Below are positions 6,357-64,000 of a stretch of DNA of 64,000 nucleotides, one piece after another. Position numbers and translations under genes: made by a program. The DNA lies in contig JAJEKV010000056.1 of NCBI GenBank assembly GCA_021234155.1, forward strand, positions 9,349,488 to 9,413,487, read 5' to 3'. Source of the DNA: Isoetes taiwanensis. Its lineage: Eukaryota > Streptophyta > Lycopodiopsida > Isoetales > Isoetaceae. The number at the start of each line of letters is the position of its first letter. The first letter of the stretch is position 1. The notes below the pieces were generated by a model. That model did no database searches and had not been told where the DNA came from. It was given only the letters and a program-made list of their open reading frames with translations.

Positions 6357-6361
6357 GTTCA

Positions 6362-18705: not shown

Positions 18706-18706
18706 G

Positions 18707-18718
18707 TGGTATCAGAGC
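18707..18718 (+). other. Gypsy primer binding site, initiator tRNA-Met
   Basis: TGGTATCAGAGC one base after LTR1. Confidence 0.93.
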
Positions 18719-18910: not shown

Positions 18911-18977
18911 GTCTCACACGTCGCGCCTGGTCAAAGAACTGAACTTTAATTTTTGAGCAGGGCGCTACCTGTGAGAC
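18911..18977. promoter_or_regulatory. Palindrome 1 upstream of the H3-like gene
   Basis: Left arm GTCTCACACGTCGCGCCTGG, right arm ending GGGCGCTACCTGTGAGAC; the arms pair over ~20 bp with two or three mismatches. The centre (AAAG...CTTT) is also partly self-complementary. First member of a pair upstream of the TATA box at 19,271. Confidence 0.85.
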
Positions 18978-19100
18978 ATCGAGCCAAGAACACAATAAAC
19001 TTGATGAATTTGAGGAAAGTAATATTGTAAGGCCAGTTCCAAGGTAAGAATTAGTTAGAATAGTATGTTTAAATCACTTAAATTACTTAACAATGTGTAA

Positions 19101-19168
19101 GATCTCACACGTAGCGCCTGGTCTAAAAACTAAACTCTAGTTTTTGAGCAGGGCGCTACCTGTGAGAC
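19101..19168. promoter_or_regulatory. Palindrome 2 upstream of the H3-like gene
   Basis: Same design as palindrome 1, with TCTCACACGTAGCGCC / GGGCGCTACCTGTGAGA arms and a perfect inner stem AAAAACTA/TAGTTTTT. Its end is ~100 bp upstream of the TATA box. Confidence 0.85.
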
Positions 19169-19270
19169 CAATAATTAGAAAAAGTCTGAAATAAGTGTAG
19201 GTTATAAGTAAATAGGTGTCTTGGCATGTTAAATAGAGCAACTTGCACTTTGACCTAAAATTTGCCCAAG

Positions 19271-20696: not shown

Positions 20697-20839
20697 ACCT
20701 TTTGTAAATAACCAAAAATTTTGTAATATAAATCAATTTTGAGTACTTTATGTGTCCGAACTTGTTTAATTAGGACAAGTTAGCAGGTAGTAGTTTTTGT
20801 TTTAGTAAAATAGGACATTTTCAGACCAAAAAGTGTGAT

Positions 20840-20906
20840 GTCTCACACGTCGCGCCTGGTCAAGAAACTAAAGTTTAGTTTTTGGACGAGGCGCTAGCTG
20901 TGAGAC
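20840..20906. promoter_or_regulatory. Palindrome 3, upstream of the second accessory gene
   Basis: GTCTCACACGTCGCGCC ... GGCGCTAGCTGTGAGAC with a perfect inner AAACTAAA/TTTAGTTT stem. It lies ~145 bp after the H3-like stop. Confidence 0.85.
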
Positions 20907-21039
20907 CTTGCCCAAATTTGCCCAAAACAACTCCAAATTGACCAAGTAAGGGGTCAATTCTGCCTAATTTGATGAGTCTGTCATCCTTACACCCTTATTT
21001 TACCCAAATTGGACATGTTTTGATCAAAATGGGACTGAT

Positions 21040-21106
21040 GTCTTACACGTCGCGCCTGGTCAAGAAACTAAAGTGTAGCTTTTGAACGAGGCGCTACCTG
21101 TGAGAC
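21040..21106. promoter_or_regulatory. Palindrome 4, upstream of the second accessory gene
   Basis: GTCTTACACGTCGCGCC ... GGCGCTACCTGTGAGAC. Second of the pair; its end is ~190 bp before the TATA box at 21,298. Confidence 0.85.
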
Positions 21107-21297
21107 CTCCTACCCTTTTCTTCACCATAACTTGTCCAGATGATCTTCAACCTATTGTGTTAGCATCTTTAGGTAAACCAGTCATGCTCAAACCCTTAAA
21201 TTAGTCTTCCAATTCCCATTTTGACCTCAATATAGGCTAGAATTGCCAAACCCCAAGAATTTTCCAAGTCACTCAAAAATTAGGGTTTTCCCCTTTT

Positions 21298-21307: not shown

Positions 21308-21421
21308 GTCCCTCATTTCATACGTGGCACCCTACGAGTTTGCTTCTGCCCCCCTTAGCCGATTTCCCAGCTCCCTGAGGCGCTCTTGCATCCGTTTGCT
21401 AGTCTCTTCCTCGCTAAACTC

Positions 21422-22948
21422 ATGGCAACCTCTGATTTCAGGCGATGGTACAGCGCCAGCGCTCATGCTGCCGAGGCTGACATCGATGAGATTTTCCGGG
21501 TCTTCCGGAAAGAAATAGATGTCCAAGCAACCTTGCATGCAACCCCAGCATATAGCAGAGTCCTGTCTGAATTTCAAGCTAGGGTAGAGCCATCATTAGT
21601 GCAGCTTCCACCTTGTATAGGCTACTTTGTTCCTAGGCAATCCCTTCAAGCAGCCTTAGGTGATGTTCCAAACATTGCCAAGTATATCACAAACAAGGCC
21701 CAGCGCATGCCCGAGCCAATGGTCCTGACTGTCAACAGGACCAAGTACTTCTCTTTCAACGCTGTCTTAGCAATTTTTCTTACCCACCGTGCCGAGAACC
21801 CCATGGGAGAAACCTCCATTCCCCCCATGGACGTGGACCCAATAGCCACAGCAGCAGCGCAACAACTCCTTTCGCAGTACGAACAGGAGCAAGAAGGAAA
21901 AGAAGAAGACGAGGAGTCAGCGGAAGAGGATGAGGACTACGTCGAGCTCGACCCAGCGAAAGAGCAGCGGCTAGCAGAACAAGAGTTGCAAGAATTCGAG
22001 AGAAGCCGATAAACTCTTAGGATAGCGCCACCCCTTGGGCTAGGTATCACAAGCCTAGCCCCCATCATCCTCGAGGGCGAAGAGTATTTGCTCCTAAGCG
22101 ACATCCAGAACCTCCCGGAGTGCAGGGAAAGGGAGTATCGACCTGACGAGTTGCTGCACCAACTCCGGAGAACAGACCTGGACGACTTCATCGTCCGAGG
22201 AACCTCCGACTTCCCACTCCAAGTAAGGGAAGCAGACACTTACACGGGAGAGTCGACCTCCGATATCCAAGCCTACAGCAACATCAGGCAGATTATGGAG
22301 GCGCGGGAACTACTGACGGAGGAAGAGTTCCTTGTTCTACAGGAACAGATGGGGATCCGCCACAAGACCTCCAACATCTTAATGGCAAGTTCTTCGACAA
22401 CACCTCCCCGAGAGAGAAGAGGCGAGTTCGACCTCAGGAGAGCTTCAGCAACAGTCAGAGACTACAGGGAGCTCACCACGGTGGAGGTCGATGACTATGC
22501 CGGCAGACACAGAGCTGGAGGCCGCGGAGGCGAGGACCCGTCACACAACGACAGGTCGTTGCGGTATTACCTTCCCCTACTGATGGATGGAAGAATAGCG
22601 GTAATTCACCGCAAATTCACCCCCAGGGGCGAGGAAGGAGTATCGATGCTAATTGCACTCTCAGGCTTTGGCCGGCATGCTCGGCTAGCTCCCAACACCG
22701 AGTATGCCATCCTGGTGAAGAGAGCGGTAGCACTTGATATTTTTGACTTCGCCATACCTTACAGACGGCAAGGAAGACTGGCAGTGACCGCAGCCTATAC
22801 CTCCGAGCGCAGGGTAGAAGATTTGGCGAGAGCTTTGCAGGGTGGATCTTCAGTCAACGTCCTTAGGAACTTGGGTCATTCAGTGGGAACAGCCCAAGTG
22901 AGGAAGTTCCTAGAGGATAATCCATCCTACCGGCGTTATCAAGAATAG
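21422..22948 (+). CDS. Unrecognised second accessory protein of the gypsy element (one in-frame stop)
   Basis: ATG at 21,422 follows a leader similar to that of the H3-like gene. The frame runs 196 codons to TAA 22,010-22,012 and then stays open in the same frame to TAG at 22,946-22,948, so I read one protein of ~508 residues with a single nonsense codon. The first part (MATSDFRRWYSASAHAAEADI) is followed by a dense acidic stretch (EQEGKEEDEESAEEDEDYVELD). After the stop: SLAPIILEGEEYLLLSDIQNLPE, a basic region rich in R and G, and a more globular C-terminal part (RSLRYYLPLLMDGRIAVIHRKF, ALDIFDFAIPYRR). I recognise no domain. Acidic stretches occur in histone chaperones, but that is only a hint from context. 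Confidence 0.75.
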
Positions 22949-25870: not shown

Positions 25871-27773
25871 GTTAGTGGCGACGGACGCAAGCAAGATAGC
25901 CACAGGTGCAGTGCTCATGCAAGAGGAGCGGGTAATAGCGTACGACTCAAGGAAGATGAACGACGCCGAGACGCGTTACCCGACGCACGACCAAGAGCTG
26001 CTAGTAGTTGTCAGGGCGTTGAGAATCTGGAGGCATTACCTCTTAGGGAGGAAGTTCCAGCTGGACACTGATCACCAGAGCCTCCAGTACGTATTCACGC
26101 AACCACATCTCAATCTGAGGCAGCGAAGGTGGATGGAGTTTCTCGAGGAGTACGACTTTGAGATAGTCTACAAGCCCGGGAAGCTTAATGTGGTAGCAGA
26201 TGCGCTTTCAAGGCATCCGCTGACAACCAGGGTGCACTGCAACGCAATCTCGACGCTCTTCAGCGATTTCGGGAAAAAGATAGAAGAAACCTTGCCAACG
26301 GATGTGGACTTCAAGGAAGCATGGGCAAGCTTGTGCAAGGAAGCGAGAACGGATAAGGAGAGGGAAACCTTCAAAAACTTTAAGAAGGAAGGTAACCTCC
26401 TATACCATAAGAACAAGTTGTGCGTGCCGGAATCATCTGGAGTAAGAAAGTTGATCCTCCACGACACCCACAACAGCCCAATAGCTGGCCACGCAGGATT
26501 CATGAAGACATACTTTAAAGTGCGTAGCAGCTACTATTGGCCGGGAATGAAGAAGCAGATAGCCCGCCACATCAAGGAGTGCCAGCTATGCCAGCAAACC
26601 AAGGCAGAACAACTTCGAATACCAGGGGCATTGGAACCATTAGCGGTGCCAAACGCTAAGTGGGAGGTCGTCAGCATGGACTTTATAACAGGACTGCCAA
26701 GGACAGTAAGAGGTAAGGATGCCTTGATGGTCGTGGTCGACAAGCTGTCGAAGATGGCCCATTTTGTGCCTTGCAGGACCACGGACACAGCTATGGATAC
26801 GGCAAAGCTCTTCACCAAAGAGATCTTCAGACTCCATGGCATGCCAAGGGAAATTATCTCCGACCGAGATCCCAAGTTCATCAGTGCCTTCTGGCAGGAC
26901 CTCTTCACAACGATTGGAACAAAGCTATCCATGAGCACGGCCTATCATCCACAAACGGATGGGCAAACGGAGCGTATCAACAGAATATTGGAAGACATGC
27001 TCCGAAACTATGTCTGGAACAAGCAAGGTATGTGGGAGGAATTTATTCACTTGGTGGAGTTTGCATACAATAGCACCAAGCAGGAATCATCCCAAATGTC
27101 GCCGTTCATGATCAACTACGGCTACCAATGCCTAACTCCAGACACTTGGCACAATCCCGTGTCAAAAGTGGAAGTTTCGCAGCAAATGTTGAGCGACATG
27201 CAGCAGCTTGTGGAAGAAGTTCGAGGGTACCTTCTAGCAGCAAGGAGTCGGCAGAAGAGCATTGCCGACAAACACCGGACAGTCAGAGAATTCCAAGTTG
27301 GAGATGATGTATGGCTCAAGATCAAGATAAAGCAGGCGAAGCTCCGCATCGGAAATTGCAAGAAGCTTGCTCCAAGGTGGGCTGGACCCTTCAGAATAAT
27401 CAAGAGAGTGGGTAACCAATCCTACAGATTAGACTTGCCAGCACACCTAAAGATCCACAAAGTCTTCCATGTGAGTTTGCTGAAGAAGCACACTCCCAAC
27501 CCAGATGAAGTCCTGGACACTCCAACGATGTTGGAAATGACAGAAGAGCAGTTAGAAATAGTTCCAGAGCTAATTCTTGATAAAGCATTCAAGAAAACAA
27601 GGAGATCGGAGTTTCTCCAATACTTGGTCAAGTGGAAACACTTGCCAGTAGAAGACGCGACATGGGTACTTAAAAGAGATCTGGAAAAACAATACCCACA
27701 GTTTATGGAGCAATGGGACGGCAAGGTCATCTCCGAAGAAATCGGCTCAGGCATGTCGATTTGTGTAGACTAA
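25846..27773 (+). CDS. pol: Gypsy Pol part 2: RNase H, integrase and chromodomain
   Basis: Open for ~640 codons. RNase [66 protein letters not shown]. Integrase: HHCC zinc module ([22 protein letters not shown]), then catalytic D (SMDFITGLP, about 26,678), D (SDRDPKF, about 26,862) and E ([10 protein letters not shown], about 26,962), plus a [15 protein letters not shown]-terminal segment. A chromodomain closes the protein ([20 protein letters not shown], about 27,609-27,668). Such chromodomains bind methylated H3 tails and steer integration, so it is notable that the same element encodes an H3-tail protein. Stop at 27,771-27,773. Confidence 0.94.
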
Positions 27774-28607: not shown

Positions 28608-30650
28608 TGTGACGTTCCAGTACGATATACGGTCCCAAGACGTATACCGTCTCAAGCGCATCGCGCATTACATCGCCGCCCAATCGGCGGTGTCCGACGT
28701 GTACCCAAGCAAGGATGCCCTAGGGGGCAACTTGCAATGGTGCGCACACTTAGCAATGCGCGCACTTTTAAACCTTTAACCCATTAAAGGAAGACCAAGG
28801 GTCATGGAAACCCTAAACCTAACTGATAGCCTACATAAGGCACCAAACCCTAACATTCCCTTTTTCGCCCACAGACCTCCCGAGCTCCGATTCGCGCGCC
28901 TGAGGAGTCAATTCCAACTCCCACGATCTGCCCATGCGCCCCAGCTTGTCGGATCATCCCTCCGACCGCATCCCGAAGCAGAACAGAGACATGGACGCCT
29001 TCGGATCAAGAGGAGTGAACCAGGGATCAGGTATTTGGTCGATTGAATAGCCTAAACCTTATTCCAGCCTTCGAACCAGTAGGTTTAGCCTATTAAATCG
29101 CCCTTAGTAGCCAAGCAGATCCTGAGATTGACTCTAACTAAAGAACCTAACTCTATGTATTAGATTAGTTCTTATTACTTATGTTCATATGATGGACGGA
29201 TGTATTCTGTGGACTCATTTTATTGGGAAGGGGGGTAGAGACTTAAAGCTTAGTAGATGATGCTCCTAGCTAGTCCCTCTTAGTGCATTACTAGAATTCG
29301 CCTTTGTGGCGAGGAGCCCACGGTTGTGGGTGAAGGGGCGGACGGGCTTAGAATGAGGTTCGTGTTACGACCCTTGGACCGAGTCCCTCCGGTGTGTAAG
29401 GCCTACCGGGGATCGAGTGACTAGGTCTAATGGCTTGCCACCGAGTGTGGGTAAGGCATGGGCTCGACACCGTGGGGTGGAGTTCACCTTCCAGTGGGTT
29501 AAGTCGAATAAGGGCAGTGGCCCTCTAGTCACCTTGGGTCAGCATGTAGATCTCTAGAGGGAGTGATCCCTATCTGCCCCATCGGGACTGGGGAGATGCA
29601 ACCCAGGCATTAGGATTTTTTTTATATTAAAAAAGGGCCTTCAAAACATGCCAACTAAGCCAAATGAAGATAAATGAACTACCAATCAGAAATCAGAGCC
29701 TGACGGGTCCAGTCAGCAAAACTGTTATAACTAACTTACTGGATCACATTTTCTAGCATAACTGTTGATAGAAAAGTCCAAATGAGCTCTTGTTTAGTGC
29801 AATAGATAGATCTCGTTGAGATCTTTCCAACCTTAGGTGCTTTGCACATATTTTAACCTTATTATTGTCAAAACTCCAAAAAATATGGTTTTTACCATTT
29901 TTTACTATCCTATAGGGCTAAAAGATATACAAACGACCCAAGGTTGGAAAGATCTCAATGAGATCTATCTATTGCACTAAACAAGAGCTCATTTGGACTT
30001 TTCTATCAACACTTATGCTAGAAAATGTGATCCAGTGAGTTGTCTGACTGTTTTGCTGACTGGATTGTCCAGTTCTGTTTTCTGATTGGTAGTTCATATA
30101 GCTTAGTCAGCACTTCTTAGAAGGCCCTTTTATGATCTCAAAAAATCCCTAATGAATAGCCCCTTTGGCTATGCACCCGGCGGGCTACAATTAGGTCCCA
30201 ACACTTTTCAACCTACTCTGCAAAGTGTGCACAGGAGGGGCGGATGGAGTGGACAACCCTAAGCCATGTTCTTATGCCAGCCCAATCCATTGTCATGATT
30301 CTGTCTGCATTGAACTCTGGAGACTCAAGCTTGTCAGTCATCCCCCTGGAGTTTGAACCTTGGGTAGGACTTCCTTGTATTGTGCTGATCTTTGTCTATG
30401 CAGATGTTGATGTGCCACCCTTCGAGGTGGATATATGATGTTATGTTACTGACGTGTATGTTTACGCGCCCGGCAGACTAGGTAGGCCCCGAGGGAGGCG
30501 GGGTAAAATGACCCCTTCACTCTTCCCACTGTGGACTCTAGGCGGTCCAAAGTGATATGTGGAGGGCCCCAGACGATTGTGGAGCTGGTGCGGGGATGAA
30601 CTCTGTTTGTATACGGTGCGGGCATCGATATCACGAGTAGGGGACGCCAC
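28608..30650 (+). repeat. Gypsy LTR2
   Basis: Starts TGTGACGTTCC, ends GGGGACGCCAC (the terminal CA is altered). It contains the same foldback element as LTR1 at 29,608-30,154. It is followed by a damaged primer site (TGGTATCGAGC at 30,653), showing that it also served as 5' LTR of the second internal region. Confidence 0.9.
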
Positions 30651-30857
30651 GGTGGTATCGAGCAATGTTCTTGGAGACCAAGAGCAAAGCACCGACCATG
30701 CTCCCAAAGAGTACTAACTTGATAGGATCCTCAAAACCTCGAAAAGTGGGAAAATTTTTTCTCATTTTTTTTAGTTTATGCTAAGCTAGTAACAGTTAAG
30801 TGAATTGGAACATAATAAGACTAAAAAGAATGAGCCAAAACCTCCTCAGGCAAGGTG

Positions 30858-31327: not shown

Positions 31328-31981
31328 ATGGCCCGAACAAAACAGACTGCCAGGAAAGCCCGTCCAGGCGAAACCCCCAGCGCCAGCGACGCCAATCTCA
31401 TTCAGCAGATGCTTCGGGAGAGGCTCGTCGCGAGGGGAGGTCGACTATCTTCGAGCGAGGAGAGCATCGCAGAGGAGCAGAACGAGGAGATAGGCCAGCA
31501 GACCGACCGGGAAGAAGATGTGCACTCGGATGCAGGGACAGAGCTGCTCGACGAAGAAGAGGAAGAGGAGGCAGCAAACCGAGAAAGGAGAACCAAGGCT
31601 CGAGAGGAGCACAGGATGCCAACTCCAGAGCCGACCATTGAAGAGCAACTCGAAGCCTGGATCCGTGAGAAAGAGGCCGAGGAGCGAGAGGAACAGCGGG
31701 AGCCAAGGCTCGAGCCAAGTGAAGAGGAGGACCTTGCGGCCTGGATTGCAAAACATGAGGCGAAACAACGGCGCCGGGAAAGCAGGAAGAGGAAAAGGGA
31801 AGAGGAGGAGGCGAAAGCAGCAGAGGAACTCAAGCAGAAGAAAGGGAAATTTGTGGGGAGCCCAAGGAAACTCAAGGAGGTCCCACAAGTAAAGAAGCCC
31901 AACCCCAAGTTTATGGAGCAATGGGACGGCAAGGTCATCTCCGAAGAAATCGGCTCAGGCATGTCGATTTGTGTAGACTAA
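31328..31981 (+). CDS. H3-tail fusion protein (H3-like N-terminus joined to Pol C-terminus)
   Basis: An intact 217-codon frame. Residues 1-10 are MARTKQTARK, identical to the histone H3 tail including Lys4 and Lys9; canonical Ser10 is replaced by Ala. Then comes a charged region (NLIQQMLRERL, acidic LLDEEEEEEAA, EEQLEAWIREKEAEEREEQ, basic RRRESRKRKREEE, KLKEVPQVKKPNPK), predicted largely helical or coiled. From residue ~195 the frame switches without a break into the last 23 residues of Pol ([15 protein letters not shown]), downstream of the chromodomain core. The histone fold is missing. The ATG is chosen because it begins the H3 motif and matches the other copies; the frame is also open upstream. 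The basic cluster could act as a nuclear signal. Confidence 0.85.
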   Translation: MARTKQTARKARPGETPSASDANLIQQMLRERLVARGGRLSSSEESIAEEQNEEIGQQTDREEDVHSDAGTELLDEEEEEEAANRERRTKAREEHRMPTPEPTIEEQLEAWIREKEAEEREEQREPRLEPSEEEDLAAWIAKHEAKQRRRESRKRKREEEEAKAAEELKQKKGKFVGSPRKLKEVPQVKKPNPKFMEQWDGKVISEEIGSGMSICVD

Positions 31982-32810: not shown

Positions 32811-34283
32811 TGTGACGTTCCAGTACGATATACGGTCCCAAGACGTATACCGTACTGCACTGTCATGCGTACACGCCGTCCAATCGACGTGTACGCCGAC
32901 GTGTACCCAAGCAAGGACGCCCTAGGGGGCAACTTGCAATGGTGCGCACACTTAGCAATGCGCGCACTTTTAAACCTTTAACCCATTAAAGGAAGACCAA
33001 GGGTCATGGAAACCCTAAACCTAACTGATAGCCTACATAAGGCACCAAACCCTAACATTCCCTTTTTCGCCCACAGACCTCCCGAGCTCCGATTCGCGCG
33101 CCTGAGGAGTCAATTCCAACTCCCACGATCTGCCCATGCGCCCCAGCTTGTCGGATCATCCCTCCGACCGCATCCCGAAGCAGAACAGAGACATGGACGC
33201 CTTCGGATCAAGAGGAGTGAACCAGGGATCAGGTATTTGGTCGATTGAATAGCCTAAACCTTATTCCAGCCTTCGAACCAGTAGGTTTAGCCTATTAAAT
33301 CGCCCTTAGTAGCCAAGCAGATCCTGAGATTGACTCTAACTAAAGAACCTAACTCTATGTATTAGATTAGTTCTTATTACTTATGTTCATATGATGGACG
33401 GATGTATTCTGTGGACTCATTTTATTGGGAAGGGGGGTAGAGACTTAAAGCTTAGTAGATGATGCTCCTAGCTAGTCCCTCTTAGTGCATTACTAGAATT
33501 CGGCCTGTGTACAGGAGCCCACCTGGTTGTGGGTGAAGGGGGCGACCGGCTTAGAATGAGGTTCGTGTGTTCGACCCTTGACCGATCCCCCCGGTGTGTA
33601 AGGCCTACGGGGGATCGTGAGTGACTAGGTCTAATGGCTTGCCACTGAGTGTGGGTAAGGCATGGGCTCGACACCCGTGGGGTGGAGTTCACCTTCCAGT
33701 GGGTTAAGTCGAATAAGGGCAGTGGCCCTCTAGTCACCTTGGGTCAGCATGTAGATCTCTGGAGGGAGTGATCCCTACCTGCCCCATCGGGACTGGGGAG
33801 ATGCAACCCAGGAATAGCCCCTTTGGCTATGCACCTGGCGGGCTACAGTCAGGTCCCAACACTTTTCAACCTACTCTGCAAAGTGTGCACAGGAGGGGCG
33901 GATGGAGTGGACAACCCTAAGCCATGTTCTTATGCCAGCCCAATCCATTGTCTGGAGACCCAAGCTTGTCAGTCATCCCCCTGGAGTTTGAACCTTGGGT
34001 AGGACTTCCTTGTATTGTGCTGATCTTTGTCTATGCAGATGTTGATGTGCCACCCTTCGAGGTGGATATATGATGTTATGTTACTGACGTTTATGTTTAC
34101 GCTTCCGCAGCTAGGTAGGCCCTGAGGGAGACGGGGTAAAATGACCCCTTCACTCTTCCCACTGTGGACTCTAGGCGGTCACAGTGGTATGTGGAGGGCC
34201 CTGTATCAGTGTGGAGCTGGTGCGGGGGACGAACTCCTGTTTGTATATGGTGCAGGCATCGTATACGAGTAGGGGACATCACA
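32811..34283 (+). repeat. Gypsy LTR3, without the foldback insert
   Basis: 1,473 bp, TGTGACGTTCC ... GGGGACATCACA. It lacks the ~549 bp foldback element (empty site at about 33,811) and has a ~23 bp deletion at about 33,951. It is followed directly by AGGAC and the resumed LINE. Confidence 0.92.
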
Positions 34284-36632
34284 AGGACACAAAGGCGCGG
34301 TACCTTGCAAGGCATCAGGGGGAGATGTTCGGCCTGCTGGACACTCATCCTCGAACCTTTTGGCGCAGAGTGCTTCGAAGGCCAGCCCGACCCTCTGAGG
34401 GGGACATCACACCCAGTAGTGGGAGCGGTACTTGCGGCGACTCTATGACCCACCGAGGGGCCGCGTCACGCCCATACCCCCATAGGATGGCCCCCCATTG
34501 GTTCTCGCGGAGGAGGATGTTGTGGACGGCCTGCAATGGCTGGCTAATGGGAAGGCAGCTGACCTCGATGGTATGCAGGCGAAATGGGGCGGGGCGGCCG
34601 GTGCCGATCCTCACTACCCCTGTTCCTTGAGCATTGCGGGGAAGGTTTTCCCCAACAATGGACCACAAGCGGGGTTGTTCCCATTCACAAAGGCGGGCGA
34701 CCCACTTAATCCGACCAATGCATGGACGATCATGGTCGGGTTCGGTATTTTGCGAACTGTTATCGGCATTCTCGGCAGCTGATTGACCCCCGGGCGGCGC
34801 GAGATGTGCGAGCCACGACACAAGCGGGCTTTAGACCCCGCCACTCAACGATTGACCATATCTTTACTGCGGGCGATTGAAGACGGCCCGAAACCATCGG
34901 CGGGACTTGTATTGCTGCTTTGTGGACGCGAAGGCTTTTGATGTCGGCCCGGGGGAAAAGCTATGGGCTAGCTGCGTCAAATGGGGGCTGTCGCTGCCGT
35001 GCGTAATGCCATATCAGGCTGTATGAGAGTTGTTTTGGCAGGGGCACCGACGGGCCAAGCATTCACCCGGTAGTATCGGGTCGGGCAGGCTGCCCCCTCT
35101 CACCAACACTTTTGGCCTCTACATTGACCCGGTTAGAGCCCCGGGCTTACTCGAGCATGGAGGGGGAGGGGGGGATGGCATACGGCTTTTGCACCGGGTC
35201 ATCCGCCGGCTCATCTATGCGGACGATGTTGACCTTCGGCCCACACCCGGAAGCTATGCGATCTCATCCGGATGCCCTAGACACATTCTCCGCCAGCTCT
35301 GGACATGCGCGTGAAATCGCCAAGACCGGGGTGGTTCTCATATCCTCTTCCGCCACCCCACCTCCTGCACTCACATATCGGGGACATCCTGTGGAGGTCA
35401 CGCCCACCTACAAGTACCTAGGGGTGGAGTTCCCCTCCTCGCTCTGTTGGGAGGCGTCTATCCGCTTGCGGGTGACACCAGGCTGGAAAGCGCTTTATGC
35501 CATGAGAACAACGGGATCCACCGTGCAGAGCTCTATGATTGGGGCCATCGGTCACATCTGTTTTGGGCATTGGTCGAACTTTGCCCTTTTGTATGCGGGT
35601 CGAGGTTTGGGGCCCGGTCGTCTCTTTGGCGACACTGGAATGACTTGGAGCAGGTGCAGAAGGCATTTTGGGCACGGGCACTTGGGGTGAAGCCTTCAGC
35701 CCCCTATCGATTGCTGCAGAAGCTGGATTCTTGCCGCCCGGGCAGCCCTTGATAGGCACATCTTCTATTTTGTAAAGTGGTTAATATGGGTGATGCTCGG
35801 CTTACGCCTGTGGCAATGGGCCCATAGAATTTCAGGCCCTGTTGGAGGGGTAAGAGAGATCGGTGGTTCGCCGGATGGAACGATGGGGGAGCCTGCGGAT
35901 CGTCGCGGTGGACCTGAGGCCAATAGTGGCGGCTGCGGGAGTACTGGGACGCTTGCTTCCTTGGCAAGCTCGGGATCCCGGCTCTAGAGCAGGTCAAAGG
36001 CGCCCATTACAAGGAGCACATCAACCCGCGTTGGCACGGGGCCAGCAGGCTCTACTGCGTTCCCTACCGCCCCGAAAAGCGGGACTCATTGCCTCCATTC
36101 GCCTGGTACCCACCATCTTCGCGATCGAGGCAGGCGGGTGGATTGGGGAGCCCAGCCGAAACGTGCTCTGTCGTCTTTGTCGAGCCGACGGTGCCATTGA
36201 GGATGAGTCTCACACTTTCCGAGTTGCCCGGATTCGGTCGGATCCGGACGACATCGTTCCCTTAGTGCGGCGGACTTGCCCCTACATTTGCCGATGAACA
36301 CACCGTCGGTATATGTGCTCGGGGTTGTACATTCGGGGAGGTCTTGGATCTGCGAGCCCACCTTTGCCCCCGCCTGGCTGCCCGTTGATCAGGCACTACG
36401 GGTACGGTACATGAGTGTATATATTTGTGTGTTTTTGCATTTCGTATATTGGAACAGTTTGTCAGCAGGCTGATTGCTGTCACGGTTTTTCCCTCGAAAA
36501 CCCTTCGGGGCGGGGGTTTTTTAATCCGGGCAGTAATCCGCTTGCTGCGCTTTTGTATTGGGTCCCATAGACCGATTGGTCTCCGTGGACGATAAAAATA
36601 CCTTCCTTCCTTCCTTCCTTCCTTCCTTTTAG
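34284..36632 (+). pseudogene. LINE, 3' part: reverse transcriptase and C-terminal zinc finger
   Basis: Resumes the LINE at KDTKARYLARHQ (34,284), continuous with the reading lost at 16,655. In broken frames: FGLLDTHPRTFWRRVLRRP, FRPRHSTI, DLYCCFVD, catalytic LIYADDVDL (about 35,210-35,234), TYKYLGVEF, and a C-terminal CRLCRADGAIEDESHTF zinc finger (about 36,165-36,220). The 3' UTR shares CCCTCGAAAACCCTTC and GACGATAAAAA with LINE2 and ends in a (CTTC)n tail at 36,600-36,630 instead of poly(A). Many frameshifts; inactive. Confidence 0.85.
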
Positions 36633-44080: not shown

Positions 44081-47000
44081 ATGACGGTTCTTGGCACACA
44101 CAACTGTGCCTGCGACTAGGGCGGCAAGGGAGGAAGCGAACCGCCCTATCCTCCCAGTCTGGCACTGCTTCAATAACAACCTTTCTACATCATAGATTTG
44201 GATGCTAGCAGGGAATTGGCATTTTATGGAGAATTTGTTTCCTTAAAATTCAAGAACCCGAAGCAGCATCAAGGCGGTTCTTTCTTGTTCTTTTGCTGGT
44301 AAGCCACTAACTTGGCATTTTCTGCTCTTTAGCTTCAGATGAAGCTTTATATTTTTGCTGAAATCTAGGATGGGCAGGCAAATCTCTAGTAACAGGCAAA
44401 TCTCTAGCTAGTTTTTGTCTTTCTTTCTGGCTAATACACATTGAAATGGCGTAGATGCCTATAAGATGGAGCAGAAATTGGGGCAAAGCACACGTAAGTG
44501 ATGAAGTTTTAGATTTTTGGATTAAACATTCTACCCAGGTTCTCTATCAGTTTGTTTCTTTCCCTTCTTTCTTCTCTTTCTTTCTAGCAGAAAGGTCTTG
44601 ATGATGTTTTGGATGATGCTTCTTGGACAACGGATTCTTTTAGATTAGTACAGAAATATTGAAATTTGAATGGAAAGAGTAGAGGCAACAGGTTATCTGT
44701 CAGTTTTGCAAATAGAATGATTAATTCAACCACTCGGTTCTTTGGTACTGCTATGCCAACAACCTCATAACCAAAACAAGTACTGATGCGTGATTGGTTA
44801 TGCTCAAATACTGATATGTTTGAGTGAGAGCTTGCTCAGATACTGATGCTTGAGCTTCATTTTATTTTGCTTCTCTCATATATTTATGGAGCTGCCAGAT
44901 ATTTCCATTCTATTTGTCAATATCTCGGGAAGATCCATCTGAATTTTCTACATGAGTACCATCATTCGGCAGCCTACTGGGCTTGTTTATATATCATCAA
45001 ACATCTTCTAGTTACCAGGTAGGAAGATTATTTGAGCTTCTCAAGTGTTGGAGTTGAATTCTTGAAAAAGAATAAAGTGCTTTGATCTATAATCTATAGG
45101 TTCATTGATAATATATGGGACCGTTTGAGATGCCGAGCTAGGGAATTTCTGAGCAGGATGAAGCTTATACATCTTGAGTCGGACTTTAAGGAGTCTGGTG
45201 GCTGGATTTTTTGGTCTAGCCAATTACAGGCCAACTACTTTATATCCCGACAATGCAGTATTTCTTATAGTTATATGCATCAGTTTATCAAGTTTATTGG
45301 TTGATGAATCTGCAGGTTTGATCAAATTTGGAAGCAGGTGCAGCTTCTTTGAGCAGCGTGGCAGGCTACTCATCTTACTCTTCATTTCTTTCTCTCTTTT
45401 TCTCTACTCTTGCAAGAGATTTATTTTTAAATAATCAAGACTTATCTGCAGTTTCTGGAAAGTTTGTGCGAAGCTCCTATGGTAATTTATCTAAATAGGA
45501 AGATTGATTTTAATCATGTAGTACTGGATGGATAGAATAGAATAGAATAGAATTGTTTTTATCGTCAATACAAAAGCCAGATAGTCACATTCTTGCCGGA
45601 TAAAAACCCCCCGGAAGGGTTTTCGAGGGAAACCGCGGGTGGCGACAATAAGGCGGCCGACAACGATTAAATGGTTATTTGGGGGCATATCCGAGCCCTC
45701 AAGTCCAGTACTTCCCTGAATGTATGATCCGTGGTGAGCGCAAGTCGTGCCCGATTATCATGTGCGCCGCTCATCAGGTCTAATCAATCGAGCATAAGCG
45801 TGTCACGAATCGATCATATGTCGGGCAGCTCTGGAAAGTGTGACACTCATCCTCAACAACTCTCGTCTGGCAGCACTGACAAACCCTATCCTGACGTGGC
45901 TCCCCAATCCATCGACCTGTCTCAATTCAGAGATTGTGGGCACCTGTGCGAATGGAGGCGATATGCCTGCGCTTTTTCATGGGCAGATGTGAACGTAGGT
46001 AGCGCTGTGGGCCTCGTTCTAATGTGGGATTTATGTCTTTGCTTGTAATGTCTTTGTTTTGACTTGCTCCGGGGCCTTGGAATCCCAAAGCTTCTTTGGA
46101 GAAACAAGCATCAAGGTAACACATCTCAGCCGTCGCGACCGCCTCTGTTTCTACCGGATGCACATGTGCTCCTGGACATTCCATCTAGTTAGCCACTGCA
46201 CTCTTTTATCCTTCCAACAATTCTTGAGTCGTTGTGGTCCCATTGCCACTGCATAAGCCAAGTGCGGTAGACGATCATCATCCATATTTACCACCTTCCG
46301 GAAATAGATGATGTGTCTATCAAGGGGTATTCGCTGAAGTGGCGAGGAAACCTTGTCTCTGCAATAAAATTTGATATGGGACCGTGGATTTCACTCACGA
46401 GTGCCCGTCTTTGAAAAGGCCTTACGCACCGCGATCGCTCCAAGTAGCAAGGGACACCCGGGCCCCAAACTTCAACCCCCGTACAAAGAGCGGGCTCTAC
46501 CAATACCCACGAACGGATGTGCGATGTCCCCAATCATACAATTACGCTCTGTGTTTATTGTTACGCATTGCATAAAGTGCTTTCCGGCCCTGGGCCGCTA
46601 CACGCAATCTTATGGAAGTGTTCAAAGCATAGTGTAGAAGGAAACTCCACTCCCGGATACTTGTAGGTGGGTGTCACCTCCACTTGTTGCCCTCGATAAG
46701 TGAATGAAGGGGCCTTGGATGGGCGAGGATGAGATTAGGACCACCTTAGTCTTGGCCAGATTGGCGTTCATGTGCGCGGGCTGGCGGGAATGTATCCAGA
46801 GCATCTAGGTGATACTGCATATCCTCTGGAGTGTGAGCTACGAGGTCAACATCATCTGCATAGATGAGTTGCCTGATGACCTGATGCAAAAGTTGGATCC
46901 CGCCACCCCCATTGTCCATGAGCCAGTGTTCCAACTGGTCAATGTACAGACCAAACAATGTTGGGGAAAGAGGACATCCCTGGCGGACCCCAATACTGCT

Positions 47001-48657
47001 AGTGAATGGTTGTCCCGTCATCCGCATCTGACCTGAACAACTCTCGTACAACCTGTATACTGCATTTTGGATATCCACAGGAACCTCCAGTTGCCCCAAT
47101 CTTTCCCATAACGTTTCCCGAGGCACAGTGTCAAAAGCCTTTGCAAAGTCAACAAAGCAACAATATAGGTCCCACCTACGGTTTCTGCTATCCTCAACCA
47201 AAGTCCTCAATGTGAAGATATGATCAATGGTTGAATGTCGGGGCCTGAATCCTGCTTGCGTGAGAGCTCGCACACCTGTTGCTTCTGCCCACCTAGTCAA
47301 CTGTTGCTCAATAATGCCAGCTAGCAGTTTGGCAAACACCGAACTGGCCATGATTGTTCGGTAATTGGTTGGACTATTTGGATCTCCTGCCTTGTAAATG
47401 GGGACAACTCTGCTTGTGGTCCACTGCTGGGGAAATCCTTCCTGTAGTGCTCAGTTGAACATAGTAGTTAGGACTGGTACCATATAGGCTCCCCTGCCCA
47501 CTTGAGCAACTCTGCCTGCATACCATCCAGGTCCATTGCTTTCCCATTGGCCAAACGCTGCAGACCCTGGGTAACATCATCCTCTGTGATTTCTAATGTT
47601 GGACCATTCTGTGGGGGTATGAGTGCTCGTGTCCCTTGAGGATCATAGAGTTGCTGCAAGTATTGTTCCCACTGCTCATTAGTGATGTTCCCCGTAGGTT
47701 GGGCTGGCTTTCGAAGAACCTTGCGCCAAAAGGTTCTAGGATGGCTTTCCAACATGTAAAACATTTCCCTTTGATGACGTGCAATGTACTGAGATTTCTT
47801 TGCCTTCAAGAAAGCACGATACTGTGTGGTGGCATGTGGGCGCATTGCAGGATCTGTGATCCGGCGGAGCCGGCATTTGTATTCCTTACACTCAGCATCA
47901 AACCACCGATTGCGCGGGAATGTTGCAGTCCCTGTGATACTTCTCGGGCATGCTATACCAAAACATCTTTCTGCGACAGTACCAAATAGCTCAATCAGCT
48001 GACCCGTTTGCTGCTCTAGCGTGGGGGCCTGTAAAATTCCTGAAAGGTCATCTATGAGCATATCAGCATAATCCTTTGCCTGCTCATAATCCAATCGCAA
48101 GTGAGGTATACGAGGAGCTGCCGTAGAAAGGGTTCTAGCAGCCTCCCAAGCCAACTGCAGGTAGAGTGGAAGGTGATCTGAGTCGGTCTCCTCATACTGT
48201 CTGTGCCTACCCGAAAGTGGTTGATCAAATTCACATCCTGCTCAGCGACTAATAGATAGTCCACCACACTAGATCCTCCACCCTGATTCTCTTGTCTGCA
48301 GGTGCACTTACAGGAGGAAGGCCAATATGCCAGGCCATTACAAATTACCAAGTCAAAGACACCATATAGTAGAAGCAACTGCCTGCCAAAGCGCGTGACC
48401 TGACTATCATCTGATGTTCGTGGCCAAGCTGCCTCCGCGGGGCGCAGCTGTAACACATCCTGAGCCAAAGGATCAAGTCTCAAGAAGAAGATGTTGAAAA
48501 GGCAGATTAGTACAAAAGCTATGGATATGAAATCTGATCCATATGAGATCTTTGTGCTTAAAGTTTATCTGGTCTATGAGAGGCCATATGCTTTAATTCT
48601 TCCCATCTTTTAATATAAAATTTCTTTCCTTCAAAACAAAAAAATAAATAAATAAAA
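44081..48657 (+). mobile_element. Retro-inserted sequence with A-rich tail, itself split by LINE2
   Basis: Bounded by a 13 bp target duplication and ending on the plus strand in AAAAAAATAAATAAATAAAA (about 48,638-48,657), the hallmark of target-primed insertion. Excluding LINE2 (45,530-48,484) the cargo is ~1.6 kb with no recognised coding sequence. A 7 bp hairpin AGGGCGG/CCGCCCT lies near its left end (about 44,119-44,148). It may be a LINE 3' fragment or a retrocopy of a host transcript. Confidence 0.75.
45530..48484 (-). pseudogene. LINE2: 5'-truncated LINE, minus strand
   Basis: Same family as the LINE split by the gypsy complex. Minus-strand order: rest of the endonuclease (GGGSSVVDYLLVAEQD, 48,240-48,300), FPRNRWFDAECKEYKCR, KAKKSQYIARHQREMF, RTFWRKVLRKP, reverse transcriptase FRPRHSTIDHIFTLR, DLYCCFVDFAKAFDTVPRE, GVRQGCPLSPTLFGLYID and LIYADDVDLVA (about 46,845-46,880), then a decayed C-terminus and a 3' UTR with CCCTCGAAAACCCTTCC. 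The 3' tail is (ATTCT)n, seen as GAATAGAATAGAATAG at 45,533-45,552. It begins inside the endonuclease, so the 5' third is missing. Confidence 0.88.
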
Positions 48658-55698: not shown

Positions 55699-56800
55699 TC
55701 AGGAGCTGGACGTGTTTGCCATTTATTGATTCGTAAACAGCATCATTCCAACCGTCCAAGTCTGAGATGGATTGGGTCTGAAGGTCATAAGTGACTTTGG
55801 TAAGGGTCACAAGTTCACATCAAATTTGCATGAGGTGAAAAAGGTATTAAAAAACGTTGTAATAACTGTGGTTGTCTTATTACAGTCACTTCATTCTCAG
55901 CTGCAGCATATCACTTGCTAGTAAGCTGGTTATAACTTGTAGCTGATCTATTAGTGATAACCTTGTGACATTTGACACGTAAGGCCTCGGCCTGACCTTC
56001 GGCTCTAGAGGGCCTTGGTCTTACGTGGCAAATCTTTGGCCTCGGGCGTACAGTCCCGGTCAAGCATTTTTGGTTATCGGCCTCGACCAGACCAATAATC
56101 TTGCCCAGCTGTGTATCTATCAACCAACGCAGTTGTCAGGACGTTAGATTACAAAATCATGCTTTGTGGAACATATCATGTAGTAAACAAGGTGCGAGAA
56201 ATTGCCACAAAGATCCTAGCATACTTGTTATGGAACAGCTAGTCATCTGGGATCTAGTCATCTGGGATCTGTCCAACAACTTCTTAGCCAATAACTTAGA
56301 TCTATGAACTTAGTCTCGATCAGGTCGCTAGAAATAGACTCAAGCGATTGTTCAAGCTTATTAGGGTTCATTCGCACTCGTGTTAAGTTCAATCAAGTAA
56401 CTTTTATCGTTGAGTTAAATTAAACATTAATTGGGTGATTGCCTTTACACCAAAGATAGTTAAAAATTTAGTTAGGCTAACTTAATAGAAAGTTAAGGTT
56501 AAGAATAAATAGGTTAAAAGTTTAGGTTAAGAATAACTTAACTAGCTTAAATAAATTCCTTCGCTCAAAAGTAGTTAAGCTAGCCAAGGGCATAAAAAAT
56601 AATGAGCACATTTAACTAACCTTAAAGTGACCTCTATGAGGTGGCTTTAACTTTTAGTGTTATTTCTAGGGAAAGTTACCGTAATACCCTTATTGTTTGC
56701 TAAAATTAACAAAATGCCTCTCTACTAGGGGCATTTCGGTAAAAATCGTAATAAGTTTTCTATGAAATTTCGAATGCAAATACGCCCTTTAAATGAATTT
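55699..56800. other. Intergenic stretch downstream of L2HGDH
   Basis: Holds the gene's 3' flank and then AT-rich DNA. A GC-rich patch at about 55,980-56,090 has repeated GGCCTCGG/GGCCTTGG motifs. No further gene seen. Confidence 0.45.
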
Positions 56801-57409
56801 GGGTTCAAGTCGAATAAGGGCAGTGGCCCTCTAGTCTCCTTGAGTCAGCATGTAGATCTCTGAAGGGAGAGATCCCTACCTGCCCCATCGGAACTGGGGA
56901 GATGCAACCCAGGAGTAGCCCCTTTGGCTATGCATCCGGCGGGCTACAGTCAGGCCCCAACACTTTTCAGCCTACTCTGCAAAGTGTGCACAGGAGGGGC
57001 GGATGGAGTGGACAACCCTAAGCCATGTTCTTATGCCAGCCAAATCCATTGCCATGAATTCTGTCTGCAATGAACTCTGGAGACCCGAGCCGTCAGTCAT
57101 CCCCTCGAGTCTGAGCCTTGGGTAGGATCTCCCATATGTATTGTGCTGATCTTTGTCTATGCAGATGTTGATGGGCCACCCTTCGAGGTGGAGATGTGAT
57201 GTTATTGTATACTGACATGTATGTTTACGCTTCCGCAGCTAGGTAGGCCCTGAGGGAGACGGGGTAAATGACCCCTTCACTCTTCCCACTGGAACCCGTC
57301 ACGGTTGCAGTGTCATGTGGAGGGCCCTGTATCGGCATGGAGCTGGTATGGGGGATGAACTCCTGTTTGTATACGGTGAGTGCACCGTATACGAGTAGGG
57401 GACGTCACA
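56801..57409 (+). repeat. Truncated LTR of the second gypsy lineage
   Basis: Matches the 3' third of LTR1 from about 17,553 onward (AAGTCGAATAAGGGCAGTGG ...) and lacks the foldback insert at about 56,911. Ends GGGGACGTCACA. Confidence 0.9.
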
Positions 57410-57410
57410 G

Positions 57411-57422
57411 TGGTATCAGAGC
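57411..57422 (+). other. Primer binding site, initiator tRNA-Met
   Basis: TGGTATCAGAGC one base after the LTR fragment. Confidence 0.9.
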
Positions 57423-57617
57423 AATGTTCTTGGTGACCAAGAGCAAAGCACTGACCATACTCCCAGTAGTACTAACTTGATAGGATCCTCAAACCTCGAA
57501 AAATGGGAAATTTTTTTTCTCATTTTTGTAGTAGATGCTAAGCTAGTAACAGTTAAAAATGAATAAAAACATAAAAAGACTAAAAATTAGTAAGCCAAAC
57601 CTTGAAAAAGTAGGATG

Positions 57618-57684
57618 GTCTCACACGTCACGCCCGGACAGATAATGAGAATCTCATTTTCGGGCTGGGCGCAACGTGTGAGAC
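57618..57684. promoter_or_regulatory. Palindrome upstream of the intact H3-like gene
   Basis: GTCTCACACGTCACGCCCGG ... GGGCGCAACGTGTGAGAC. The inner stem AATGAGA/TCTCATT differs in sequence from the other family but is again self-complementary. A half copy (GTCTCGCACGTCGCGCC, about 57,829-57,845) stands where the second palindrome of the pair would be. Confidence 0.85.
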
Positions 57685-57895
57685 ATTCAGCTTGAAACTC
57701 CCTAAAAAGTCATGAATTTCAGGAAAATAACTTGATAATTCTAATTGTAAGGTAGGAATTGAATTGGTACATTACATTTCTAAAAGCATGCTTAAAAAGT
57801 ATAAAATTTAGCATCAGAAAATTCCATGTCTCGCACGTCGCGCCAGGACAGGTGACCCAAAAAGATAGTTTGAAATTTGACCTAAAATCGGCCGC

Positions 57896-57905
57896 CTATA
57901 AATAG
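57896..57905 (+). promoter_or_regulatory. Putative TATA box of the intact H3-like gene
   Basis: CTATAAATAG, 109 bp before the ATG, followed by a leader AGAAATCGCTCTCCCTC shared with the other copies. Confidence 0.65.
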
Positions 57906-58004: not shown

Positions 58005-59252
58005 ATGGCGAGGACCAAACAGACTGTTAGGAAGCCCCGCCCAGGCGAATCCTTCAGCGCCCATGATCCTGCCCTCATAGAGAGGATACTGCAAGAACGC
58101 CTTTTCAGGCAAGGCGAATCTTCATCGAGTGAGGAGGCAGACTCGGACCAAAGCGACGGGACAGAGGTCCTAGGCGACGAGCGCCCAGACATCATGCACC
58201 AGATCCTCGAAGAAGTCGCCGAGGAGGAAAGGAGGAGGAAAGAGGAACGGGAACAGCAGAGACAGCCGACCATCGAGGAGCAACTCGAAGCTTGGGCTCG
58301 TCTGAAGGAGGCTGAGGAGAGAGAGGAGCAGCGGCAGCCGAGGCTTGACCCTGCTGAAGAAGAAGACCTCGCGGCGTTCATCAGGAAGTACGAAGCCAAA
58401 GAGCGCCGCCGAGAGAGGAAGAGAAAGAGGCAGGAGGAGGAGCCTAGCACAGCCGGCGAGCCGAAGAAGAAGAAGGCCAAGGGCATAAAGGCGGGCAAAA
58501 GAACAGTTGTGAAGGTCAAGCGAGTGAAGGGTCTCGTCATCAACGAACCATCAGGCGACCAGACCCCGCCCTCCACCGACGACTCGGACGAAGATTACGT
58601 CCCCAACACTGAGGGGGCAAGCTCTTCAAAACCCCCGGTCGTGGAGAAGGAAGTACCTGAGCAGGTGGCACCTGAGCAGGAGCAGCCCGGGCAGGCGCCG
58701 AAGCCCCCACGTTACCCGACGTGGGATAGGGTCAAAGCTCCGCGGCCACAACGGGAGGCGTACGTGATAGACCCCGTCAAGGTCTATCAAAAGAAGATGA
58801 GGGCGCACAACGCCTACATGGCGAAGTGGGAGGCATACAACGCGTACTATCAGGAGCACAGGGTGAGAACCATCGAAGGCGGACACCCAACAAAGAGCCG
58901 GACTCTAAAGCCGCCACCACCCAAGCCCAAGCCTCCCAGAGCACCAGGAAAGAAGCGGACCGGCAGGAAGGAGACGGAGAGGAGAGCCCTCAAGGAGATC
59001 CGGCACTTCCAGCGAAGTTACGGATTCTTGATTCCCCGAGCACCGTTCGCCCGCCTGGTCCGAGAGGTCATCCAGGAGTACAACACAGACATGAGGGTGA
59101 CCGATGAGATGTTGCTGGCCCTGCAAGAAGCAACAAAGCAGAAACTGGTGCAGCACTTCGAAGATTCGACGGCCTGCACAGTTCATGCGAAAAGGGTCAC
59201 GCTTATGAGGCAAGACATGCATCTTGCTAGTCACATCAAGAACAAAGTTTAA
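58005..59252 (+). CDS. Histone H3-like retroelement protein, intact
   Basis: 415 residues from ATG to TAA without interruption. Residues 1-10 (MARTKQTVRK) are the H3 tail except Val for Ala7; Lys4 and Lys9 are kept, Ser10 is Pro. Residues ~30-300 are a charged linker: Ser/Glu/Asp-rich SSSSEEADSDQSD, helical EEQLEAWARLKEAEEREEQ, basic ERRRERKRKRQEEE and PKKKKAKGIKAGKR (likely nuclear signals), SDEDYVPNTEG, and proline-rich PPRYPTWDRVKAPRP. Residues ~320-415 are an H3 fold: ALKEIRHFQRS, PFARLVREVIQEYNTDMR, MLLALQEATKQK, FEDSTACTVHAKRVTLM and DMHLASHI, about half identical to canonical H3 and with H3-length loop 1. The absence of gag or pol downstream and the intact frame raise the question of host use or expression in trans. 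Canonical H3 is 135 residues, so the linker is a ~280-residue expansion. Confidence 0.9.
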   Translation: MARTKQTVRKPRPGESFSAHDPALIERILQERLFRQGESSSSEEADSDQSDGTEVLGDERPDIMHQILEEVAEEERRRKEEREQQRQPTIEEQLEAWARLKEAEEREEQRQPRLDPAEEEDLAAFIRKYEAKERRRERKRKRQEEEPSTAGEPKKKKAKGIKAGKRTVVKVKRVKGLVINEPSGDQTPPSTDDSDEDYVPNTEGASSSKPPVVEKEVPEQVAPEQEQPGQAPKPPRYPTWDRVKAPRPQREAYVIDPVKVYQKKMRAHNAYMAKWEAYNAYYQEHRVRTIEGGHPTKSRTLKPPPPKPKPPRAPGKKRTGRKETERRALKEIRHFQRSYGFLIPRAPFARLVREVIQEYNTDMRVTDEMLLALQEATKQKLVQHFEDSTACTVHAKRVTLMRQDMHLASHIKNKV

Positions 59253-62235: not shown

Positions 62236-62850
62236 GTCAGTAAGACAATCTCTAGTTCCTATGATGCTCTATGCAGTTCATTAACAAATACATGCTACTA
62301 TGCTTCTCCAACTAAGATATCTATAAGATCTGTATTAAACATGCAGAATGTAGGCAGAAGCACACATGGATTTGGTAGATGGATCTCATCGAAATCCATA
62401 TTGCAAGTACTTGGTAAATGGAAACTAACCTTGATTTTAATTGGGAAGATGAAGTGGAGATTTAGGCTAGATGATGAAGAACAAATTTGGGATGCAAAAT
62501 GCAAATCGAATGAAGACAAACTTGAACATAAGAAAAAAATCCTATATCATTAGAAATGCCTTTAGAATTTTATGGCTAAACTCAAAAAGACTTTACCTCC
62601 CTACAAGTGGCGAAATTCTGTCCCTACAACTGGCCAATATAGAGTCTGGCCATAATCCTAGAATTATAAAATTATTTCGTGGTTTAAATGGCCACCACAA
62701 CAAGTCGCTATCTTATATTATAAAGTTTTAGCGTATGTCTTGCATCAAACCCTAATTTAGATAGTTGAGATCGTCTGATTGCATTTGAAGGCCGAGATTT
62801 ATCGCACAACTTCCCACCACCATGATTGGCCATGCTCTGATCTCTTAAGA
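62236..62850. other. Non-coding stretch, nothing recognised
   Basis: No gene or repeat structure identified before the purine-rich block. Confidence 0.45.
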
Positions 62851-64000
62851 GGAAAGGGAAAATGGCAGAGAAAAGGGCAAAGTGAGAGGCAAAAAGGCAC
62901 GGGTAAAAGGGAAAGACGGAGAAGGAAAAAGGAAAGGGAAAAGAGCATGAAAAAGGGAAAGAAAAAGAAAGGGAGAAAAAGGAAGGAAAAAAAGACACTA
63001 TGAAAAGGAAAAGGGGGAAAGGGTGAGGACAGAATAAGGGAAAAGAAAAGGGGAAGGGAGGAAAAGGAAGAAAAAAGGGGCAGCGGAAAAAATGTGAAGA
63101 CGAAAAGGGTGACGGAAGGGAAAAAGGGGAAGATAAGAATGGTGGAGAGGGAAAAAAGGGCATGGAAAAATAGAAAGGGAAGGAAAAAGGAGGCGAAAAA
63201 GGGAAAAGGGCATGAGGAAAAGGGAGAGGGAAATGAGAGAGGAAGGAGAAAGTGGCACGAGAAGAGGAAAAGGGTGAGAAAAGGAAAAAAAGAAAGGGAA
63301 AAAGAGATGGAAAAAGGGAAAAGGGAAAAGCGAAAAGCAAAAAGAGAACAGAAAACATGGAATAGGAAAAGAGGAAAAGGGAAAAGGGGAAGAGGGTGGG
63401 AAAAGGAGGAAAAAGGGCATGTGAAAAAGGTGGAAAAAATGGAATGGAAAAAGGTGTGGGAAAATGGAAAGGAAAAGAGAGAAGGAAAAAAAGGATGGAA
63501 AGGAAAGCGGAAAAGGGCATGGAAAAGGATGAAAAAAAGAAGGAAAAGGAAAAAGGAAATGGAAGGCGAAAAGGGAAAGGGGAAAGAAAAAAGAACACGA
63601 GGAATAAGGAGGGAAAATGGAAAAGAGGAAGGGAAAAAGGGCACGGAAAAAACTGGAAGAGGGAAAGGGTGAGGAAAGGGTAAAAATAAAGGGAAAAAGA
63701 ACATGGGGAAAGGGAAAAGAAAAAGAAAAAAGGGGAATAGGGACGGGGAAAAGGGGAAGAGGGTAAGGAAAGGCGGAAGAAAGGGAAAGGGAAAGGGAAA
63801 GGGAAAGGGAAAAGGAAAGGGGGAAGGAAAGAGGAAAAAGGCACGGGAAAAATAGAAAGGGTGGGGAAATGATGAAAAAAGAAGGAAAGGGAAAAGGAAA
63901 AAGGGAGGCGGAAAGGGGGGAAGGAAAGGAAAAAAGGCATGAGAAAAAAGAAAGAAGAAAATGGGAAAAAAGAGACATGAGATAAAGAAGAAGAGGGTGA
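62850..64000. repeat. Purine-rich minisatellite, runs off the right edge
   Basis: Over 1.1 kb of almost pure A/G on the plus strand, mainly GGGAAAA and GGAAAAAGG strings. It is punctuated by GGCATG, GGCACG or related CAYG motifs at about 62,899, 62,946, 63,158, 63,208, 63,254, 63,417, 63,515, 63,593, 63,638, 63,700, 63,840 and 63,935, often 45-50 bp or twice that apart. A perfect (GGGAAA)n run lies at about 63,785-63,812. Long F/S/P-rich minus-strand frames here are artefacts of composition. Confidence 0.85.

Follow-up and report, generated by a model that had tools for sequence, protein, structure and literature searches.

Our results identify a histone H3-type gene as a component of an LTR retrotransposon lineage in the quillwort Isoetes taiwanensis. 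Within the window, a 64,000-nucleotide stretch of contig JAJEKV010000056.1, the plus-strand frame 58005-59252 is almost certainly the H3-type ORF of the element (ORF1, here of type A), and the H3 ORF belongs to the element and not to the host. The carrier lineage is ordered LTR, primer binding site (PBS), ORF1 (H3), ORF2, ORF3, gag-pol with chromodomain, LTR. From the sequence features described below we favour, with a probability of roughly 45%, a model in which the element-encoded H3 variant partners host H4 to form chromatin beyond the normal marking by host silencing. Were H3 to be a regular gene in a lineage of LTR retrotransposons, retroelements might contribute a nucleosome component of their own.

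The frame 58005-59252 is intact over 415 codons and joins an H3 tail at its start to an H3 fold at its end, as the initial annotation had claimed. Its N-terminus reads MARTKQTVRK (codons 58005-58034, plus strand), where constraint across the family is highest, and the H3 fold forms the C-terminal end (residues 321-413; 58965-59243, plus strand). The protein matches Pfam Histone (PF00125) with E=4.4e-25 over residues 301-411, which settles the proviso of the initial annotation that residues ~320-415 might lack a histone profile match, and it matches PDB H3.1 at 4.1e-23 over residues 291-413 (phmmer). Structure prediction of the fold, which the same annotation had proposed as a check, returns an H3 fold with pLDDT 81; the full-length prediction reached a pLDDT of 58.9 and was set aside. 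Both an H3-type histone fold and an H3 N-terminal tail tip are present in ORF1 type A. Approximately 300 residues part the tail tip from the fold, compared with the ~40-residue tail of canonical H3 that is continuous with its fold, and ORF1 is therefore an H3 variant rather than a canonical H3. No near-identical relative of the 415-residue protein was returned by database searches.

The surroundings of the 58-kb copy agree with the initial annotation, which had placed an LTR end, a primer site and a leader in front of the frame. LTR comparison identifies the 3' part of an LTR with its 5' side cut off (56800-57410, plus strand), followed by the PBS TGGTATCAGAGC (57411-57422, plus strand), which we take to be of tRNA-iMet type, and by a leader that includes a palindrome (57616-57690, no strand assigned) and TATAAATA (57897-57904, plus strand) 108 bp upstream of the ORF1 start. 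Homology with seven other copies spans only 56800, inside the LTR, to 59240, and since it stops about four codons before the stop codon the last residues of the frame are flanking sequence. The copy is thus a fragment, and the intact frame lies outside any intact element, though the family has such elements. Further downstream, 62850-64000 is a degenerate A/G-rich repeat with long minus-strand frames that have no Pfam match.

A fuller chromovirus is found in the same window. Its 5' LTR (16661-18706) is followed by a PBS (18707-18718), two palindromes upstream of ORF1 (18908-19172), a copy of ORF1 with a broken frame (19381-20696), two palindromes upstream of ORF2 (20838-21110) and a two-piece ORF2 that is related to its counterparts in the other copies (21386-22948). 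Pfam matches then place gag (PF03732; 23503-24450), reverse transcriptase (RT; PF00078; 24671-25870) and RNase H, integrase (INT) and chromodomain (25875-27773) ahead of a second LTR (28611-30653) that is 96% identical to the first; all these features lie on the plus strand save the palindromes, which have no strand assigned. Features of a chromovirus LTR retrotransposon found here are an LTR pair, a PBS and the expected succession of gag, RT, RNase H, integrase and chromodomain. The initial annotation had described 19381-20696 as a related copy inside a full chromovirus, and its membership of the family stands. It is not a single open frame: the copy reads MARTKQIARKPGPC, then a stop, and the fold sits in a different frame (19914-20696) with a Pfam Histone match of 7.7e-28. 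A third copy of ORF1, absent from that annotation, lies at 31328-31909 (plus strand); it starts MARTKQTARKARPGE and ends before the fold, retaining tail and linker with the fold deleted, and a third LTR follows at 32814-34283 (plus strand). Three LTRs in a recombined tandem make up the window element, and the flanks read show no clear target-site duplication. Inside the 5' LTR there is an insertion of ~550 bp (17662-18211) with 130-bp inverted repeats, which is MITE-like and missing in two LTR copies. Other elements in the window include a copia element (3884-9389; LTRs 95% identical; gag, integrase and RT domains) and two inverted copies (34300-35626 and 46449-47789; 70%) with an RVT_1 domain, perhaps a LINE.

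Across the Isoetes taiwanensis genome (1,658,258,908 bases in 1110 contigs) the ORF1 family is extensive. With the type A protein as query, the best 101 of 23,902 first-look candidates have 68-100% identity, the window copy included; 65 of these 101 places lack an internal stop and 36 contain stops, 67 align from residue 1 and 62 span residue 1 to at least 399. A frame matched at 101 or more places in the genome is no chance product. A Pfam Histone search of the genome gave 150 scored places, the best of 8705 first-look candidates and all above the cut-off, many of them within open frames of 200-494 codons; eight loci returned by this search are canonical host H3 genes. Twenty further rows of the Histone search, selected for long frames, all contain an ORF with a C-terminal H3 fold. 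By their N-termini these loci divide into type B (MPRFKLT..., 12 loci), type C (MET or MEE...KQV, seven loci) and type D (MANTK..., one locus). Over residues 44-131 their folds are 84-89% identical to host H3, as against 50-52% for type A. The genome is thus not limited to type A, and ORF1s whose H3 folds are near-canonical occur abundantly as well.

The initial annotation had allowed that the frame might be missing from other members of the LTR family, leaving a host gene beside an LTR remnant. An ORF2 match instead lies downstream of the H3 ORF in all 20 selected loci, and within the 10 kb fetched gag is found in 17, RT in 17 and INT in 15, any of the three being present in 18/20; the other two loci (L012 and L019) have no gag, RT or INT match inside those 10 kb. 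Downstream slices of the 10 next-ranked rows contain an element ORF in 10/10 and gag, RT or INT, with queries from the window, in 8/10. Approached from the opposite end, at least 14 of the 70 listed integrase places are preceded on the same strand by a type A H3 place, at a distance of 6.4-7.7 kb, and among the matches listed none of the 70 has one on the opposite strand within 10 kb; the remaining 56 of 70 are no evidence of absence, the H3 and integrase lists both comprising listed matches only.

Purifying selection acts on ORF1 types A, B and C. Type A was found by whole-protein similarity, and 16 copies were fetched, eight being the best matches and the other half picked as stop-free across the range. 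In the 12 with intact frames residues 1-12 have a pooled pN/pS of 0.08 and the fold one of 0.14, compared with 0.28 and 0.26 for the two main stretches of the linker and 0.16 for its last part. With saturated pairs excluded, the fold, N-terminal half and linker of type B have median dN/dS values of 0.04, 0.09 and 0.18 (10 of 12 copies, two shortened frames dropped), and those of type C 0.02, 0.09 and 0.15 (five of seven, two damaged N-terminal parts dropped); the B and C copies had been selected as high-scoring histone matches in long frames, a choice that biases these values towards conserved folds. As yardsticks, dN/dS is 0.07-0.10 for ORF2 (three copies per type), 0.05 for RT from one pair and 0.28 for gag from two pairs, the latter two resting on too few stop-free copies. 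The branch leading to the 58-kb copy carries 18 synonymous and 12 nonsynonymous changes, where 3.5 nonsynonymous changes per synonymous one are expected under neutrality, and its nearest relative, which bears stops, has 16 synonymous changes, 15 nonsynonymous changes and two stops. These values bear on whether ORF1 is a fragment of a host H3 gene that was caught by the element and is decaying without a role. Stops in 36 of the 101 listed type A places and the broken state of both other window copies fit such decay, which is nevertheless hardly credible given purifying selection in three ORF1 types and on the 58-kb branch, and a position before ORF2 conserved in 20/20 loci. The protein therefore matters to the element, from which it does not follow how it matters, and the roles suggested in the initial annotation (to form or disturb nucleosomes, package cDNA or recruit chromatin factors) keep the standing of hypotheses.

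The regions upstream of ORF1 and ORF2 share a common arrangement. A TATAAAT motif is present ~110 bp upstream of the ORF1 start in all eight type A copies with flanks, and a second TATA is present upstream of ORF2 in all seven type A copies that extend past ORF1. Palindromes of ~67 bp, paired upstream of ORF1 and again upstream of ORF2, are common to most copies; a motif search found all four in five of eight copies and fewer in L045, L046 and the window fragment. Five palindrome units in the window fold better than their shuffles (z -4.1 to -8.0). The palindrome and TATA unit looks like a duplicated promoter module, of which one would serve the H3 gene and one the rest of the element. ORF2 itself (~440-465 residues) is conserved, for example at L021:5006-6334 and L025:4779-6173 (both minus strand) and window 21386-22948. 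Four ORF2 and two ORF3 pieces from other copies gave no Pfam match at E up to 10, the sole Pfam match of the window ORF2 piece in the same range was PSF1_C at E 0.21, below the cut-off, and a profile of 11 ORF2 pieces matched nothing in the PDB at E up to 10. A resemblance of the ORF2 C-terminus to H2A had been seen by eye, and the idea of ORF2 as a second histone was dropped for want of a Pfam or PDB sequence relative. ORF3 (~140-160 residues, before gag) is likewise conserved among copies and lacks a Pfam match (L010:5852-6337 and L020:5714-6127).

Type A retains ARTKQTARK save for single changes, with K4 in 11, R8 in 12 and K9 in 12 of the 12 intact copies and Ser10 replaced by proline in all 12, while in types B-D the tail is degenerate. 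In the fold, all 22 element sequences compared match host H3 at six positions of the H3-H3' four-helix bundle, while the share of DNA-contact positions retained is 53% in type A, 89% in type B, 94% in type C and 100% in the one type D copy. ORF1 may assemble with H4 into nucleosomes, a question on which the kept interface residues bear indirectly. DNA wrapping is less sure for type A than for types B and C because only about half of its DNA-contact positions are kept. A candidate H3.3-like chaperone site was also considered: L90 is found in types B-D, joined in type C by H87, yet both host H3s compared share L90, which was therefore not counted as H3.3-like evidence.

In the model that we favour, ORF1 would be made as a separate protein from its own TATA and promoter-like module, would enter the nucleus and would pair with host H4 via its retained H3 surfaces. 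Host chaperones may help to load it onto element DNA, either incoming or newly inserted. The hybrid nucleosomes so formed would carry an altered tail, with K4 and K9 kept, Ser10 lost and the remaining tail replaced, and in other subfamilies a degenerate tail. Host H3K9/H3K27 silencing could then neither mark nor read them normally, so that the element would stay expressible. Several traits agree with a role of the protein in chromatin: in each type a fold under tighter constraint than the linker, an intact tetramer interface, a tail tip kept in type A and decayed in the others, and a putative promoter for ORF1 itself.

The retention of K4 and K9 in type A fits the recruiting or decoying of tail readers equally well. 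ORF1 might accordingly be a histone mimic, in which the tail tip on a long flexible arm captures H3K4/H3K9 readers or writers and the fold merely anchors or stabilises the protein. The peak of constraint at the type A tail tip is consistent with this, as is the loss of Ser10 with K4 and K9 kept; of 100 stretched database proteins, 99 likewise have K9. In types B, C and D, however, little of the tail sequence is left, and there the fold is under the strongest constraint and can be no mere anchor. We regard a decoy function as unlikely.

The element also encodes an integrase with a chromodomain, and the H3-like surfaces of ORF1 are kept, which together could suit an integration tether: ORF1 would join host chromatin as an H3 variant and provide a landing place for the integrase. 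The window chromodomain, compared by eye with HP1, has only one of the three aromatic residues that form the cage, which makes a simple K9-methyl handshake unlikely and weakens the related idea that the chromodomain binds the methylated K9 of ORF1 itself. In the available text of PMC6317226, type II chromodomains likewise lack cage aromatics, and a tether of this kind is distinctly unlikely. The basic stretches in the linker, and the presence of both gag and ORF1 in one element, suggest another role, the condensation of element RNA or cDNA in particles in the manner of a basic nucleocapsid. As gag of the window chromovirus has a weak CCHC match of its own, and the conservation of the exact H3-H3' interface and of the tail tip exceeds the needs of a basic packaging protein, such a nucleoprotein role is very unlikely. 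If ORF1 does provide a nucleosome component, the element would be using the H3 tail, the same molecule through which hosts silence retroelements. The ORF1 family lets one test whether transposons build chromatin that escapes silencing, and represents a set of natural H3 variants in which tail and fold are set apart.

The origin of ORF1 was addressed with a fold tree of 95 columns, in which type A forms one clade on a long branch and types B-D form another (100/98) near canonical H3. Holding A together with B-D is mildly rejected (p-AU 0.033), which leaves room either for two captures or for very fast evolution of type A; holding A with four proteins from Logan gives p-AU 0.253. Types A and B-D may derive from separate captures. 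APFxRLVRE occurs in many CENH3s, and type A ORF1 also has it. As in CENH3/CENP-A, the H3 fold of ORF1 is divergent and a long N-terminal region precedes it; unlike them, ORF1 has an H3-type tail tip, no loop-1 insertion (types A-D) and many dispersed retroelement copies. The longer loop 1 of CENH3 was sought in 22 element folds of types A-D and no insertion was found, and a CENH3 origin of type A was set aside for this reason. An insertion of one residue in loop 1 is present in four Logan proteins.

We rate ORF1 as the meeting of two known kinds, histones acquired by capture and extra ORFs gained by LTR elements. The accessible sections of PMC9145170 describe histones carried by DNA viruses and by bracoviruses, among them single viral H3s, marseillevirus doublets and bracovirus H4, which are thought to join host nucleosomes. 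ORF1 resembles them as a captured eukaryotic histone with its fold kept and its tail altered or lengthened. Their carriers, however, are DNA viruses or polydnaviriforms rather than an LTR retroelement, and in the same sections their tails are 35-38 residues longer (121 in one H2B), whereas ORF1 has an insert of ~300 residues between tail tip and fold. The words 'retrotransposon' and 'retrovirus' do not occur in the available text of that review. Additional ORFs (aORFs) have been reported from most LTR retrotransposon lineages (PMC12786077), and an orchid gypsy element carries an AlkB-type demethylase (PMC9289625). As far as the accessible parts of these two papers extend, our element is similar to theirs in keeping an extra gene within an LTR element and differs in that the added gene is H3 and is located 5' of gag. 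The order gag-RT-RNase H-INT-chromodomain, the tRNA-type PBS and the type II-looking chromodomain are shared with the plant chromovirus clades in the available portion of PMC6317226, from which three ORFs (H3, ORF2 and ORF3) ahead of gag set the present lineage apart. No histone gene is named among the added domains or ORFs of plant LTR elements in the accessible text of PMC9289625, PMC12786077, PMC6317226 and PMC2864245, nor does the word 'histone' occur in that of the I. taiwanensis (PMC8566536) and I. sinensis (PMC10541799) genome papers. The initial annotation knew of no LTR retrotransposon described with an H3 gene; a literature search with subscription papers and preprints mostly outside its scope found no retroelement-encoded histone, in keeping with that statement. 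In genomes of this kind, a gene annotated as a histone can in fact belong to a transposon.

Proteins of similar layout are found in sequence databases. A MARTKQTARK start, a long linker and an H3 fold are common to the ENA and Logan proteins, and in 100 of 292 database proteins the H3 tail comes first and the fold lies far downstream (fold start 296-364). These 100 have K4 in 100, K9 in 99 and Ser10 in one, with position 10 otherwise occupied by N (52), D (27), T (16), A (3) or K (1); many are near relatives and they therefore represent few independent events. Among 13 shorter-spaced proteins Ser10 is present in 12, the exception (P0007) being of the linker type itself; 16 further tail-bearing proteins matched no fold pattern and were left out of the count. 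The P0236 and P0261 clusters are ENA families of more than 200 members each, in which a different linker joins an H3 tail to an H3 fold close to the canonical one. When the A, BCD, ENA and Logan groups were compared by hhalign, their N-terminal parts showed no homology past the first 18-37 residues, which speaks against a common linker. It is conceivable, if on balance doubtful, that retroelements repeatedly captured H3 and rebuilt it for their own chromatin as a stretched histone with K4 and K9 kept, Ser10 gone and an insert in the tail; the quillwort lineage would then be a genome-scale success, and the ENA and Logan families, with their unrelated linkers, putative independent cases in other eukaryotes. 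Viral contigs scanned with the integrase and P0236 contained no relatives. One IMG/VR contig has an H3-containing histone multiplet (L001:379-1449) beside an H4-like frame (L001:41-313), which by eye is of giant-virus type.
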